Source: Stentor roeselii
Lineage: Eukaryota > Ciliophora > Heterotrichea > Heterotrichida > Stentoridae
DNA: 64,000 nucleotides
Direction of reading: 5' to 3'
Assembly: GCA_006503475.1 (NCBI GenBank)
Contig: RSEH01000214.1
Span: forward strand, 1 to 64,000
In this document: positions 27,438 through 41,952 of the stretch, one piece after another
Layout: every line of letters begins with the position of its first letter
How positions within the stretch are numbered: the first letter of the stretch is position 1
The notes under the pieces: generated by a model
Seen by the model: the letters and a program-made list of their open reading frames with translations, nothing else
Told to the model about the DNA's origin: nothing
Databases searched by the model: none
Position numbers and translations under genes: made by a program

Positions 27438-27983
27438 CTAATTGGAGTCTTTTAAAGCACTCATCTTCTTAATCGTTAGTTCAAAAAGAAGTTGGATATT
27501 CTGTCCAGTTAAGGCACTGACTTCGATATATGCAGCATTGAATCTAGCAGCTAACTCATACCCTTCATCAAAAGAAATGATTGGATCAAGGTCAGATTTA
27601 TTCCCAGCAATAACAAATCCAACATGATCATCAACTTCTTCAAACATCTTGATAGCTATTTCTAGTTCCTGTAAAGATTGACTTGTCGATTTATCAAAAA
27701 CAAAAATAATGACTCGGCTATATTGAAAAAATCCGAGTATCTTAGAGAACCATTCACCTGTGACGTTCCACTATGTGAACTTTACTATCTTTAGATGAAC
27801 TTGCTTATCTTCGAAAAAGACGGCTGTCTGAGTATAGTTGAATGGTGATTTGAAACGATAAGTATTTTCAAATTTATTATATAAGTATCTCTCTAAAATT
27901 TTAGACTTTCCTGATTTTGACGGTCCGACTATACAAATGTTCAAAGGGCTAATTGGAGTTTACTTAATTTCCGAATATTCCAT
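27438..27983 (-). CDS. Atypical Rab/Ras-like small GTPase, two introns
   Basis: Two 15-nt introns at 27949-27963 (gtaaactccaattag) and 27771-27785 (gtaaagttcacatag) join short frames into a protein of 171 residues. It begins MEYSEINPLNICIVG. The P-loop is GPSKSGKS near residues 15-22. Switch II normally reads WDTAGQE but here reads WNVTGEW, and intron 2 falls exactly before its Trp codon. G4 is NKSD, and G5 SAL follows. The length is close to a bare G domain. The C-terminus (MSALKDSN) has no prenylation cysteine, so ordinary Rab membrane anchoring is unlikely. Loss of the G3 Asp and of the catalytic Gln predicts poor hydrolysis or a switch-defective role, by analogy with known small GTPases. 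The start ATG follows TTATA. A decaying gene is possible, but both introns splice cleanly and keep the frame. Confidence 0.8.
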
Positions 27984-28755: not shown

Positions 28756-29982
28756 CTACAAAACTATTAACTCTATAGTTAAAAAAGGTCCAAAAATGCC
28801 AGATCTTTGATCCCTTTCAAACGCCCAAACCGACTTATAATACCCAGGAACATTCTGAGTAATAACCCCTCTAATAAAAATATCCCTTTCACACTTAGAA
28901 TTCACAACTTTTCCAGGAAACCTGACATACTGAAAATCAACTTTTTAACTCTTACAACAAGGATCCCCGCGAATACAAACAGCTCCAAAGTCACTTAAAT
29001 CCTGATCCCCTTCATTAAAAACCTTCCACCCTCTGACGATTTCCTCTCCAGCCCTAAACGCACTTTTAACAACAGGTAAAGGTTTAACAGAGATAATCAA
29101 AGGTTTCGAGCAAATAAATCGATGATGTGAATGGACCTCTTTTTTCAAGCACTTATGGCAAAGATCTATTTACCCTTTACCGAAATTTTCACATTCCTGA
29201 CATTTATACCTAAGTCCACTAATAGGATAAAATCCGCACCCATCACACATAACATTTTCATGCACTCCATATTTGTTAAAAACAGCGAAATCCGAATGTT
29301 CATGATTCTTTGCATCATGACACTTCCAGCACTCATTGTAATCCTCACAAGTCAAGCAAAGGTACCGTTGGACCTGAATAGGTTCCATTCCACAAGCTTT
29401 ACACCTTGAGCCAAAATGCAAATTACTATGCTCGTTAAACAAATGATTGTAAAAATAACATTCGTCCATTGTTTTATGCACCTTCGCGTCTAAATCGCTT
29501 AGAACTTGCCCCAGAGCTAGAAGACAACTGTGCTCGTTTGCTTTCGCAAGGATGTACTTCGAGCAGCAATCAACACATTTAACTTGGCGATAATCACAGA
29601 TATCTTCGTGATTTTTAATGTTTCTTCGAATGTCTTTAAATCCGCAGTCGTTTAAACAGCTGGTTAAGGAAAAGTCACAAGTTTTTTCATGGGCTTCTAT
29701 TGATTCTAGTCTTATAACTTCTAAACAGCCTTCGTCTTTGAAGATGCAGGTTATTTGAAGCTTGTCTAGCTCTGATCGGAGAAACTTGTGGGATCTTTGA
29801 AGTTTTAACTCGCAGGTGTTTGGACAGCTGTTTTTTTTCTTTGACCAGCTTTGGATGCAGGATGAACAGAAACTTGTTTGGCATGTTTGACATTCTTGAG
29901 GGTCTTCTAGGACGTCTAGGCAGATCATGCATTTTAAGTCGTCGCTTATTGGATGAGGAAATCTTTCGCTGTCGTAACCCAT
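28756..29982 (-). CDS. RING-TRAF zinc finger-ZZ-ZZ protein with NBR1-like FW domain
   Basis: Two 15-nt introns, 29166-29180 (gtaaagggtaaatag) and 28941-28955 (gtaagagttaaaaag), give a 398-residue protein. A RING finger spans residues about 18-57 (CMICLDVL, CPNTC). TRAF-type zinc fingers follow at about 79-150 (H-x3-TC, H-x3-IC spacing). Two ZZ fingers come next: CKACGMEPI...C-x2-C and CDGCGFYPI...CHKC. Intron 1 splits the second. The last 95 residues read as the immunoglobulin-like FW domain of NBR1/ILRUN proteins: GWKVFNEGDQDL, a short loop, then VPGYYKSVWAF and FGPFLTIEL. NBR1 pairs ZZ with FW in selective autophagy; here an E3-type RING is fused in front. An E3 ligase or autophagy adaptor role is inference. 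The gene starts 40 bp from a divergent neighbour, directly after TTATAA. Confidence 0.85.
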
Positions 29983-31029: not shown

Positions 31030-31827
31030 ATGGACTTTAACCTAGAAAATCAATCCCTGGATTCCTCGTCAATTCAGATCCAAAAGCCAACTCCACGATT
31101 TTGCACGCCGAAATACTCTCCTTTCACTCAATCCGTGATGAACCTGACGCCAATCCACGGTTACATAACAACCCCGACGCTTTACATCAACCCGTAAGCC
31201 TTATTCAGAATAACTCCAGACCAAAGCTTTCGACAATTCACTCAAATTTCACCTTTTGAGTCAGAAACGCCGTGCATTGCACGGCGCGTTATTCAAAAGA
31301 TTGATTTTTCACAGTACCTTGAAAATCATGGAAAGTTAAAAGCGAATTCGCTTCCTGTGGAAATAAAAGTTTATCAAGATGATGCCTTTGAACATAGCTC
31401 GCTTCTTACTAGTCTTAGTAAATCGAAACCAATGAAAAGGTCTCGGAATTCGACGAATTCGAAACTTGGATGCACTTGTCCTAAAAGCAAGTGTTTGAAA
31501 CTTTATTGTGAATGTTTTGCTAGACAGGAATTTTGTGATGGATGTAATTGTAATGATTGTCACAATATTATGGAATTTGATGATGTTAGGAAAGAAGCTG
31601 TTAGGGCTACTCTTGAAAGAAATCCGAATGCTTTTGTACCGAAAATTGGAGGATGTCATTCTGGACCTGTGCATCGGAAAGGCTGTCACTGCAGTAAAAG
31701 TGGATGTCTTCAGAACTATTGCGAGTGCTTTCAAAGCGGTGCAGTTTGTTCTGACATGTGCCAATGCTCCGGCTGCAGGAACAATGAAATCACTAAAAAG
31801 AAGAAAAAAAGAATGAATTTTAACTAA
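31030..31827 (+). CDS. Tesmin/LIN54-type CXC-domain protein
   Basis: A 15-nt intron at 31194-31208 (gtaagccttattcag) fuses a 54-codon first exon to the main frame, giving 260 residues. Two CXC (CRC) repeats bind DNA in this family: CTCPKSKCLKLYCECF near residue 150 and CHCSKSGCLQNYCECF near residue 220, each followed by further cysteine pairs (CNCNDC, CQCSGC). In animals and plants such proteins (LIN54, tesmin, TSO1) recognise CHR-type promoter elements and serve the DREAM/MuvB complex in cell-cycle genes. The N-terminus is Pro/Ser/Thr-rich and may be regulatory. It ends in a basic KKKKK-like tail that could aid nuclear import. Its stop is only 2 nt from the stop of the next gene on the other strand. 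Confidence 0.9.
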
Positions 31828-34027: not shown

Positions 34028-36175
34028 CTACATCACCACAATCTTCTCCTTATCCATCCCCGCTTTTCTCAGTATCTTCTTATAACTCCTATTAAACCCA
34101 GAAGGTCCACAAATCCAAGCTAAGTCAAACCCATCCTTCGCGAGCCCATCCACAATTTCAGGTATATCCTTCTTCTTCGGATTTTCATCAGTAACAACTT
34201 CAAGTTCAAGCCATTTCGCATTCTTAGCAAATTCATTCAAATTATCAATTCCAAATCCATCTTTGTAAGTTCTAAAAAAGACAAACAAATGCAACTTGAA
34301 CACATCTGAACTATTTCCAAACTTCTTATAAGCCATGTCGACCAAGTCAATAAACGGAACAAGTCCAGTTCCTCCAGCAAGAGCTAAGAATTTTCCAGAC
34401 AAATCATGAAGTAGTAGTCCGGGGCCGAGGGGACCTCTGATGGTGACAGGGTCTCCGATTTTAAGTGAATCAAGATAGTTGGTCATTTTTCCGCCTGGGT
34501 AAACTTTATACACGAATTTCAGGTCTCCGAAGGAGGAGTCGTTGATTGGCTTGGAAGATTCGTTTGGACTCCAGGATGATAGGTCTGTGAAAATGCTTGA
34601 GTAGTATCTTTGAACTGATTTAAAACGCTTTTGGAATTTGAACATGAAATGCTTTCCTAACCAGGAGGATTCTTTGCAGGATTGGGATACTTTGAAGTCG
34701 GAACTTGTTAGGTAAAGGATACTTGTATGTGGGTTTAGTTTTAGCCTGTCTTTAAGGGAAAAGGTTAGATATACACTTGATTGAGGGTAAAGTGGTGACA
34801 GGTATCCAGGAATTTCTGGAATTTTTCCTATGGCTAGTGTTTTTAACATTGAGAAAGCTTTTTTAGTGTGGGTATAAGGGTTGTAGGATCCTCCGTAACT
34901 ACTACAGCCTACCATGTACTTCCCAGCGTCTTCTCCCAAGTTATTTTTAATCATAAAGCTACCTCCAGGATGCGCTCTATAAAAATGTCTAACATCAATA
35001 ACAAGTTCATCAGCAAACATGATTTTTTTCCCATTCTTGACCATTTCCATAGCTTCAAAGTGACTAATCTCTTTAAGTTTCGAACTCGGCAATCTAACCT
35101 TATTCCTATAAACTCTCTGAAACGCTTCAAACCCAACAAAAAAAGCAAACAAAATCGCATAAATAACGACTATCAACCCATTGTTACCTTCCTCATTCAA
35201 ATCCCACCCGAGATCCAAGTTCATCAGCCCAGCAATAAACATGACATACCCAATAACTCTATGAATCTTGAGTAAAGCCATCGTAATCGCAGTGTTCTTA
35301 GTAAAAACCGTGAAATACCATCCCATCAAGCCGAAAACCACCTGACCGATGACCAAAGCAGCTAAAATATGCCCGATTCTTGAATGTGAAATTTGATCAT
35401 CATCAAAGAAGTTATGAGATATTTCTCCTTCTTTAAAAGTCGTCGCTGAGCTGATTAAAGTCAGAATAGAAGTCGCTGAAAGACAGAAAAAATGAACATA
35501 AAACCACCAAGAAGAGGCTTTAAAATAACGAGCTGCTATAATTCCTATTGATGCTAATAATCCCCAGCATATTGTCATTACTCTACCGTGAGTTGTTCGG
35601 TCTTTCTCTGAACTTAATTTTTTTATGGAGAAGTCTTCACTGTTTACTGCGAAGGTCATTTTTGCGGAATCTAAATGGAATTTACATCTGCTTTTGCCGT
35701 GATAACTAACACCTGATGTGCCATCCACATATGCCCATATTATTGATTGGGATGAGTCTGGGGTTATTATAGCGTCAAGGGAATCCCCGGTGTCGAGCTT
35801 TCTTGAGAATTTCACGATGGCTCCTTCGGATGAAGTGTAAGTTGTTGAAATGAGGTTAATGCTGTTTTTGCCTCCTTGATCAGAATCATCTAGAGGAAAC
35901 AGATAATCTGTCACATAGCAATCAGTCACTTCAATGTTCGATCCATCAATCGTTACAAGGTAAATATCAGATTTTGCCATCTGGGATCCTAGGCCCAATC
36001 CACAATAACCGTCGGATATTTTGCACTAAATAAAGGGTACAGAGAGAGTAATATCAATCTCATTGTCACTTTGCCTTATTTCCCAGCCCAGGGTCATTAT
36101 ATCATCCAGTGAGGTTTCAATATAATCGCCTTGGACTATAAGGTTTACAAAGTGAACAAGCAAAAGGAACGCCAT
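34028..36175 (-). CDS. DOMON-cyt b561-cyt b5-ferredoxin reductase fusion, copy 1
   Basis: One 15-nt intron at 36026-36040 (gtaccctttatttag) gives 710 residues. After a signal sequence (MAFLLLVHFVNLIVQG) comes a luminal DOMON domain (about 20-170). A six-helix cytochrome b561 core follows, with the expected histidines in HGRVM, YVHFF, HSRIGH and KIHRVIGY. A cytochrome b5-like domain carries AHPGGSF and a second His in YTHTKKA. A flavin/NAD(P)H reductase module then shows RYYSS (FAD), RGPLGPGLLL, AGGTGLVPFIDL (nucleotide) and a CGPSGFNRSY end. The parts order into a cytosolic NAD(P)H to FAD to haem b5 to b561 to DOMON trans-membrane electron chain, probably a ferric or ascorbate-type reductase; the substrate is inference. 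The frame stays open upstream to an ATG at 36331, but the signal peptide and ATATAAAT context favour 36175. Confidence 0.88.
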
Positions 36176-36507: not shown

Positions 36508-38664
36508 CTACATCAATATAATATTATCCTTAGGCAGTCCAGCTTTTCTCAATAGTTTTTTATAACTTCTATTAAACCCAGAAGGTCCACAAATCCAAGC
36601 CAGGTCAAAATTACTACTAGCAAGTCCTTTAATAATATTTCTCACATCGTTTTTATTTGGAAGTTCATCAGTAACAATCAGAAGTTCAAGCCACTTCGCA
36701 TTTTCAGCTAATTCTTTAAGTCTTTCAAGAGCGAATCCATCCTGAAAACTTTTAAAAAAAACAAACATATTCAAATGAAAGTCTTCTGCCGTAATTCCAA
36801 ACTTCTGATACGCCATTTCAACCAAGTCAATAAACGGTACAAGTCCAGTTCCCCCAGCAAGAGCTAAAAAAGTTCCTGAAAGTTCTTGAAGAAGTAGTCC
36901 AGGGCCGAGAGGACCTCTGATCATTACTTGGTCCCCCTCGTTAAGAGACTCAAGATAATTCGTCATTTTTCCATCTGGGTAAACTTTAAACACGAACTTC
37001 AACAAGCCTGAGGATCTTTCAGTTGTCTCTTGAAGTGGATCTGAACCTTCAGTGAAGTCTGTAAAAATACAGGAATAGTATCTTTTTATCAAGTCGAATT
37101 TTCGCTTGAAGATAAACATGAAATGCTTTCCTAACCATTGAGGCTCTTTGCAACTTTCAGAGACTTTGAAGTCTGGACTGGATATGTAGAGCATTCTTGT
37201 GTGATGGTTTAAGTTTTTCTTTTGGGTTACTGAAAAAGTCATGTAAATACTTTCTTGAGATTTTAAGGGGACTAGAAATTCTGGAATTTTGGAGATTTTT
37301 CCTATTGCTAAGGATTTTAACATTGAGAAGGCTTCTTCGGAGTGGCTGTATGCGTTGTAAGAGTTACCGTAACTGCTGCAGCCTACCATGTACTTGCCAG
37401 CGTCTTCTCCAACTGTCCTATTAATCATAAATGAACCTCCAGGATGCGACTTGTAAAAATGACTAACATTAACCACAAACTCATCAGCAAACATAATTTT
37501 TTTCCCTTCCCTAACCATTTCCATGACCTCAAAATGATTCATTTCCTTTAATTTCTCACTAGGCAAAGAAGTCTTATTCCTAAAAACTTTCTGATAAACT
37601 TCCAAAGCAACAAACAAAACCGGTACAATAACATAAATAATAATCATAAATTCCTTGCGATCTTTTGTATTCAAATCCCAACCGACATACAAGTTCCTAA
37701 GCCCAACAATGAACATAACATACCCAACAAATCGATGAATCTTCAACAACATTAAAGTCACCGTCGTATTCCTGGTGAAAATCTTGAAGCACGAGCCCAT
37801 AATGCCAAAAATAGTCTGACCAATGACCAAAGCAGCTAAAAAGTGCCCGGTTCTTGAATGTAAAACTCGATCATCATCAAAACTCTGATAAATACTTTTT
37901 TCTGCTTTATAAGCACTTGAAGAACTGTAGATTGTGAGAATCGAAGTAGCTAAAAATGAAAGAACATGAACTATGATCCACCAGGGATAAGCTTTAAAGT
38001 ACCTCGCTGAAATAATTCCAATAGTCGCTAAAAGTCCCCAAGCTATTGTCATTCTGATTCCATGTCTAGTCCCGTTTTTTTTTGAGTTGGTATCATCTTC
38101 TGAAAAGTCTTCACTAGAATAGGTTTCAGATGGTGATGAAAAATTTATCGTTCTTCTAACTGTTTAGGACTTACATCTGTTATTTCCATGATAAGAGACT
38201 CCGGACTGGCCGTCAACATAGGCCCAGATGATTGATTGGGAATTATCTGGAATTATTTCCCTGTCGAGGGAATCTCCTGTGTTAAGCTTTCTGGAAAACT
38301 TCACAATTGCAGATTTGGAAGTTGAATAAATTTTTGAAAGGACTTTGATGCTAGTTTTACCGCCTTGATCTGAATCTTCAAGTGGTAAGGAATGGGTAGT
38401 TGCATAACAGTCTTTCACTTCGATTGTATCTTCGTCGATAGTGACTAAATAAATGTCAGCTTTCGACATCTGAGACCCTAGGCCTAGTCCGCAGAAACCT
38501 TTGGATATTTTGCACTAAATGAAGAGTACTTTTAAAGTGATCTCAATTTCGTTGTCGTTTTGGTTTATTTCCCATCCTAGGGTCATTATATCATCGAGTT
38601 CTTCTTCGATGTAGTCACCTTGGACCATTAGGACAAAAATTTCCACCATCAAAAACAATCCCAT
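36508..38664 (-). CDS. DOMON-cyt b561-cyt b5-ferredoxin reductase fusion, copy 2
   Basis: Two 15-nt introns, 38515-38529 (gtactcttcatttag) and 38160-38174 (gtaagtcctaaacag), give 708 residues. It is the tandem neighbour of copy 1, on the same strand, 332 bp away, with the same domain order. It has a signal sequence (MGLFLMVEIFVLMVQG), DOMON, a b561 core with HSRTGH and KIHRFVGY, a b5 domain with SHPGGSF, and a reductase with RYYSC, RGPLGPGLLL and AGGTGLVPFIDL. Intron 1 is at the same position as in copies 1 and 4. Intron 2 lies at the end of DOMON, near but not identical to the second intron of copy 4. The linker after DOMON (SSEDFSEDDTNSKKN) has diverged strongly. The start context is TTATAAATATG. 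Confidence 0.88.
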
Positions 38665-41412: not shown

Positions 41413-41952
41413 ATGGAAATTCCGAAAGCTGTCCAAGAAAAAGCTCGAGGTCGACAACAGTTCAAGCATGGAGAGCAAGTGATTTATGAATGGGAACAAA
41501 ATCTTGATGAAGTTTTAATGTTTTTAAAGCCTCCACAATGGGCGCTGCCGAAATATCAGAAGGAAATGGCGAAAGACTTGAAACCTGGGCAAGTCCTTCC
41601 TCAGCTTTACGTGAATATTGAAAGAGATCGAGTTGAAATAGGAGTAAGGCCGAATCCTCCTTTTTTGAATGAAGAACTTGGAGGACTTGTGGTGAAAAGT
41701 GAGAGTTATTGGATGATTGATGATGATGAACTTGTGATTAACTTGCAGAAGATGAGGAAAGCGGAGACTTGGGCTTGTTGTTGTAAAAGACATGGAGAAC
41801 TTGACCCTTTTACGAAGACTGAGGTTCAGAAGAAGATTATGTTGGAGAGGTTTCAAGAAGAAAATCCTGGATTTGACTTCTCGAATGCTCAGTTTAATGG
41901 AATGGTTCCTGATGCCAGAACTTTTATGGGAGGGGTCAGTTATACTAAGTAA
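41413..41952 (+). CDS. NUDCD2: NudC domain-containing protein 2-like (NUDCD2)
   Basis: The product is 179 residues starting MEIPKAVQEKARGRQQ. The frame is open further upstream into the CACYBP gene, but this ATG is preceded by TTATTAAAA and gives the usual size. A CS/p23-like fold spans about 25-110 (YEWEQNLDEVLMFL, ENYWMI-like segments), and the C-terminal signature ERFQEENPGFDFSNAQF is close to the animal NUDCD2 ending. Family members are HSP90 co-chaperones that stabilise LIS1 and dynein-related clients. It contains a CCCKRH segment where animal forms have a Trp-Thr stretch. Its stop is 5 nt from the stop of the MFS gene on the other strand. Confidence 0.92.
   Translation: MEIPKAVQEKARGRQQFKHGEQVIYEWEQNLDEVLMFLKPPQWALPKYQKEMAKDLKPGQVLPQLYVNIERDRVEIGVRPNPPFLNEELGGLVVKSESYWMIDDDELVINLQKMRKAETWACCCKRHGELDPFTKTEVQKKIMLERFQEENPGFDFSNAQFNGMVPDARTFMGGVSYTK

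Follow-up and report, generated by a model that had tools for sequence, protein, structure and literature searches.

A 64,000-nucleotide stretch of Stentor roeselii DNA (contig RSEH01000214.1, positions 1 to 64,000; hereafter the window) carries on its minus strand, at 28756..29982, a gene for a 398-residue protein in which a RING domain and TRAF-like zinc fingers are followed by two ZZ domains and a C-terminal domain homologous to the FW domain of NBR1-type proteins. The gene belongs to a small paralogous family, and the explanation that we consider probable is that it encodes an E3 ubiquitin ligase of the TRAF-like RING type, in which the ZZ-ZZ-FW-like C-terminal half serves as a substrate-binding module of the NBR1 kind; its ligase activity, its binding of N-termini and its substrate are what we infer. 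An original prediction made from the letters of the window had placed a gene with two tiny introns on this strand and at these positions, and both the gene and its introns are borne out by the analysis described here.

Gene structure and introns

Between the ATG at 29982 and the TAG at 28756 the minus strand contains three open pieces in one frame separated by two stops, and each stop, an in-frame TAA, lies in a 15-nt GT..AG stretch. Intron 1 (29166..29180) falls inside the second ZZ domain and intron 2 (28941..28955) inside the FW-like domain, in the loop that follows strand 3 according to the structure model described below. Both introns are in phase 1 and have an A at position 10, and their removal yields the 398-residue reading frame. 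Of the in-frame stops in the window, 16 are flanked on either side by 60 or more open codons, and 10 of these are covered by a 15-mer of the form GT..A(position 10)..AG, compared with 182 of 8,303 stop triplets overall (2.2%), with 17 start offsets allowed for the 16 stops and 15 for the background. Both introns of the gene are among the 10 covered stops, and the two splices exceed chance expectation; the other six in-frame stops have no 15-mer intron explanation.

The single full-length paralogue (L010, see below) has 15-nt introns at both of the same positions and in the same phase, and an A is found at position 10 in all four introns of the two genes. Two short paralogues read through both sites and are intronless there. 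In the passages of PMC9505925 that bear on this point the branchpoint of annotated Stentor introns is placed at position 10 in 90.9% of cases, and the annotation of Stentor coeruleus includes 8,806 introns that are 15-16 nt long, which makes doubtful the accompanying claim that automatic annotation would stop at a fragment of 270 residues.

Window frames of at least 150 codons end in TAA (18), TAG (10) or TGA (2). The two frames that end in TGA each run into a further stop within six codons, and TGA therefore looks like a real stop, as in the standard code. An exception is the in-frame TGA at 41464 on the minus strand, which is flanked by open stretches of 91 and 231 codons and for which there is no intron candidate.

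Domain composition of the protein

The RING domain (residues 17-57; 29812..29934, minus strand) scored over the Pfam cut-offs of PF13923 (28.5 bits, cut-off 27) and PF00097 (21.3 bits, cut-off 21) and just under that of PF13639 (27.1 bits, cut-off 27.3). It contains eight cysteines (C18, C21, C31, C34, C39, C42, C53 and C57), of which Cys31 is extra, and it retains I20, W46 and P54. When 11 related loci of this genome were given to one search expression eight RINGs were caught, and six of these eight share the pattern ECxxC....C..C. Because the eight cysteines are present and the pattern recurs, the RING of the window protein is read, from its residues, as a ciliate variant rather than a dead RING. 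The TRAF-like zinc fingers (about residues 73-152; 29527..29766, minus strand) did not reach the Pfam zf-TRAF cut-off (17.3 bits, cut-off 27) and were assigned by their match to TRAF6, which aligns over residues 2-157 of the protein (phmmer against PDB, E 2.1e-10), including the RING, the fingers and a GYD start ahead of the RING. Unlike TRAF6, the protein has no C-terminal TRAF/MATH domain match in Pfam up to E 1 and ends instead in the ZZ-ZZ-FW-like tail; its RING also differs in having eight cysteines and a threonine in place of the histidine ligand.

The first ZZ domain (29296..29418, minus strand) scored 28.7 bits and the second (29119..29262, minus strand), which is split by intron 1, scored 40 bits across the intron; together they reached 55 bits, the Pfam cut-off being 21.4. 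Among PDB entries the ZZ matches found by phmmer were HERC2, p62, KCMF1, MIB1 and PRT1, with the second ZZ domain matching HERC2 best (E 1.3e-12), followed by p62 (E 1.4e-10) and PRT1 (E 1.4e-7). HERC2 differs from the window protein in being a HECT ligase of very large size. Alignment of the second ZZ domain to that of p62 indicated that D129, R139 and D149 are kept, and by eye the corresponding domain of L010 keeps all four p62 residues (D129, R139, D147 and D149), whilst the first ZZ domain of the window protein lacks those at positions 129 and 149. In a tree of 28 ZZ rows a branch with support 82/83 sets apart the eight rows of the family and a single non-family row (C407); 16 of the 25 inner branches are open, and the tree does not decide in either direction whether the ZZ domains of the family originated from NBR1.

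Beyond the second ZZ domain, about residues 290-398 (28759..29100, minus strand) form a divergent relative of the FW domain (N_BRCA1_IG, PF16158), an assignment that draws on profile scores, shuffles, hhalign, a structure model and the ligand pocket. The PF16158 profile gave 15.8 bits (E 0.021) on the whole protein and 19.7 bits (E 0.0012) on the domain alone, spanning profile positions 6-108 of 108. In a shuffle control the domain scored 27.2 bits and none of 5,000 shuffles reached this score, and comparison with FW domains by hhalign gave E 5.8e-6. A structure model built from an FW-based alignment returned the three solved FW domains as its first-ranking matches. Two of the four conserved FW tryptophans are kept in our own reading of the alignment; the eight FW rows of this genome have just three invariant tryptophan columns among themselves. 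These comparisons argue for a divergent homologue of FW at the C-terminus. The predicted succession of ZZ and FW thus stood as regards order and as regards a homology exceeding shuffles, but the FW copy is a divergent one and lies under the Pfam cut-off (28 bits). The original prediction had further proposed that a C-terminus other than a beta-sandwich would speak against it; no such fold was obtained, but FW domains made up the alignment underlying the model.

A full-row alignment was made with those 54 of 79 bacterial FW rows that were at least 100 aa long, and in it the strand that follows the long loop is probably out of register, five intron residues having remained in the query. Halving the bacterial rows to obtain a better alignment gave a worse result and was dropped. 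A match of the FW-like region to the glutathione synthetase N-terminal domain (17.6 bits, cut-off 21.3; 30 residues) was set aside.

Paralogues and other FW and ZZ proteins of the genome

The genome searched comprised 44.4 Mb in 522 contigs and was the sole eukaryotic sequence set covered. The counts given here are lower bounds, the search being intron-blind and the FW search having missed the window's own copy. One full-length paralogue was found (L010, C113:31851-33089), with 36% identity over residues 1-398, together with two short paralogues, L011 and L023, on contigs C6 (284 aa) and C64 (279 aa), which consist of the ZZ-ZZ and FW-like part and lack the RING.

A further RING-FW protein (L003, C161:74014-75027, plus strand) is encoded by a single open frame of 338 aa, and both its RING (31.5 bits, cut-off 25.2) and its FW domain (75.5 bits, cut-off 28) exceed the Pfam cut-offs; its middle part has no Pfam match and is taken as coil. 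It resembles the window protein in joining RING and FW in one chain, but it has no ZZ or TRAF-finger match, and its FW domain retains by type five of the six ligand-pocket residues described for CtNbr1, with Glu at D658 and Ser at W763. Judged on these domain scores, C161 is the clearest RING-FW protein seen, and a cleaner fusion of RING and FW than the window gene.

Seven proteins with NBR1-type parts make up the rest of the eight FW matches (L001, L002 and L004-L008). Six of them combine ZZ with FW (on C309, C151, C476, C281, C42 and C494) and one combines PB1 with FW (C277); the FW domain of the C494 protein fell slightly short of the cut-off in the protein scan (27.0 bits) and scored 29.1 bits in the genome search. 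Just some of the seven have PB1 and UBA scores over the respective cut-offs. A review in JCB from 2022 states, in the part bearing on this, that NBR1 has just one homologue in most non-metazoans (PMC9582228), compared with the seven NBR1-type proteins of this genome.

Two other loci, L042 (C72) and L045 (C35), have the order PB1-ZZ-UBA, with each of the three domains exceeding its Pfam cut-off and no FW match, a p62-like architecture in a ciliate; p62 is confined to metazoans according to the corresponding part of the same review (PMC9582228). Elsewhere in the genome L053 (C129) has an open frame of 279 aa with a ZZ domain and, by eye, a UBA-like end. A 423-aa open frame at L031 (C10) has by eye a SWIM-RING-ZZ-RING look, which we take to be the order of ZSWIM2.

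Predicted function and alternative explanations

The joining of a RING to ZZ and FW modules, which in NBR1 proteins both read N-terminal peptides (PMC9233695, in the passages concerned), suggests by analogy a ligase that reads the N-termini of its substrates. In such a ligase the RING and TRAF-like fingers would recruit a ubiquitin-conjugating enzyme (E2), the second ZZ domain, in which most of the p62 residues for a free N-terminus are kept, would dock the N-terminus of the substrate, the FW-like beta-sandwich would contribute a protein-protein surface, and the substrate would be ubiquitinated for turnover. Reading of the N-terminus would fall to the second ZZ domain rather than to the FW-like domain, whose fold may perhaps help the second ZZ to hold substrates. 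The working mode would be like that of PRT1, in which RING and ZZ are likewise united in one N-degron ligase, and not like that of NBR1.

Several observations weigh against this reading and in part favour other explanations. At p62 position 147 the second ZZ domain has an asparagine, and in p62 a lysine at any single one of D129, D147 and D149 abolishes binding (PMC6197226, in the portion describing these mutants). Thr36 occupies the position of the TRAF6 histidine ligand, the usual RING histidine being absent, and the RING of L010 is under the Pfam cut-offs (21.5 against 27 and 20.5 against 27.3 bits). Together with the RING-less paralogues on C6 and C64, which keep just the ZZ-ZZ-FW-like part and demonstrate that this module can exist without a RING, these RING features speak for a RING-TRAF scaffold that has lost E2 binding and for an adaptor with a ZZ-FW binding module, a ligase in name only. 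We regard this as an unlikely alternative, given that the window RING itself is over the Pfam cut-off, that I20, W46 and P54 are kept, and that the eight cysteines follow a pattern common to most of the RINGs caught in this genome. The C-terminus, for its part, might be a beta-sandwich unrelated to FW that a weak profile match and the FW basis of the alignment drew towards that family: the domain is under the Pfam cut-off, a model whose alignment consisted of FW domains is not independent of them, AlphaFold run on the single sequence of the FW region without alignment was uninformative (pLDDT 33), and a profile of the four FW-like regions found nothing significant in PDB, reaching the human NBR1 FW domain at E 0.5, behind the unrelated Dscam at E 0.2. 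Two of the four paralogues have FW-like domains that do not exceed their shuffles, and for that of L010, with the eight ciliate FW rows alone, 38 of 5,000 shuffles reached the score. The shuffle control of the window domain, the hhalign result, the ranking of the three solved FW domains first against the model and the position directly after ZZ, as in NBR1, nevertheless leave an unrelated sandwich improbable.

The original prediction had envisaged one protein that both ubiquitinates and captures cargo. Such a protein would be an E3 ligase and NBR1-type autophagy receptor that would hand its ubiquitinated cargo over to the autophagosome through an LC3-interacting region (LIR). The protein shares with NBR1 the succession of ZZ and FW-like domain, and the proposed scan for LIR motifs found nine core matches. 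However, this number is at chance level (shuffle mean 8.1, with 850 of 2,000 shuffles reaching nine), and eight of the nine matches lie inside assigned domain limits. No PB1, UBA or UBA-like domain was matched in Pfam up to E 1, which sets the protein apart both from NBR1 and from ILRUN, in which a UBA-like domain accompanies FW. The N-terminal-peptide pocket of the CtNbr1 FW domain comprises F651, D654, D658, W672, L762 and W763 (PMC9233695, in the piece concerned), and just two of these six residues (W672 and L762) are left in the window domain; the columns of F651 and D654 were placed by spacing and by ILRUN, since the printed CtNbr1 piece begins after them. The RING in front and the divergence of the FW-like domain are further differences from NBR1. 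As the genome has seven other proteins with NBR1-type parts, there is no need for the window protein to act as an autophagy receptor, and a dual function is, in our view, improbable. What stands of the earlier proposal is a predicted E3 ligase fused to NBR1-type modules, an architecture that shows only once the two introns are taken out, whilst its receptor part, with four of the six pocket residues lost, is not supported.

Relation to described architectures

The review cited above states in its relevant part that eukaryotic FW domains occur in NBR1 and ILRUN only (PMC9582228), and both the RING-TRAF-ZZ-ZZ-FW-like and the RING-coil-FW architecture are outside that statement. No description of a RING-FW protein or of a RING-TRAF-ZZ-ZZ-FW family was found in the open-licence literature, among the matches listed, with subscription journals and domain databases not searched; the remark that no described family has this architecture was to that extent upheld. 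A close comparison to the predicted ligase is PRT1, a plant N-degron E3 with two RINGs and one ZZ that is reported in land plants and in charophyte and chlorophyte algae only (PMC6933115, in the passages concerned). PRT1 shares with the window protein the presence of RING and ZZ in one chain, and its ZZ matches the second ZZ domain as noted above, but it has two RINGs, and TRAF fingers and FW are outside its layout as described in those passages.

As FW and ZZ can both bind free protein N-termini, it is conceivable, though we hold it to be rather unlikely, that heterotrich ciliates have on more than one occasion made the cargo-reading modules of NBR1 serve ubiquitin ligases as substrate receptors, as RING-TRAF-ZZ-ZZ-FW in the window and C113 proteins and as RING-coil-FW in C161, and that these would be N-degron ligases with FW as the reader in C161. 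FW as the N-terminus reader of a ligase is not mentioned in the passages of the cited literature. If active, the RING-FW proteins would couple ubiquitin transfer directly to modules with which an autophagy receptor reads N-termini, and would make it possible to test whether the original role of FW was the reading of cargo or of N-termini in general.

Wider FW scans and neighbouring genes

A scan of viral contigs with the family alignment gave 72 pattern matches, none of which was confirmed. Scanning genome contigs with three FW rows gave 194 confirmed matches, from which 79 loci (L059-L137), all bacterial by title, were kept and served for profiles and alignment rows only. Their titles name Chloroflexota or groups that we presume to belong there, and in this one scan, with its 194 confirmed matches, FW domains were frequent in Chloroflexota.

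Within the window a minus-strand frame at 34034-36025 contains DOMON, cytochrome b561, cytochrome b5 and FAD-binding domains, and two further minus-strand stretches (about 36511-38517 and about 57189-56811) resemble it by eye; all three are interrupted by 15-nt introns. A minus-strand stretch at 27438-27959 has by eye the look of a Rab-like small GTPase, with a stop at 27773 covered by another 15-nt intron. On the plus strand, 31198-31824 encodes a Tesmin/TSO1-like CXC protein with two TCR stretches (86.5 bits).
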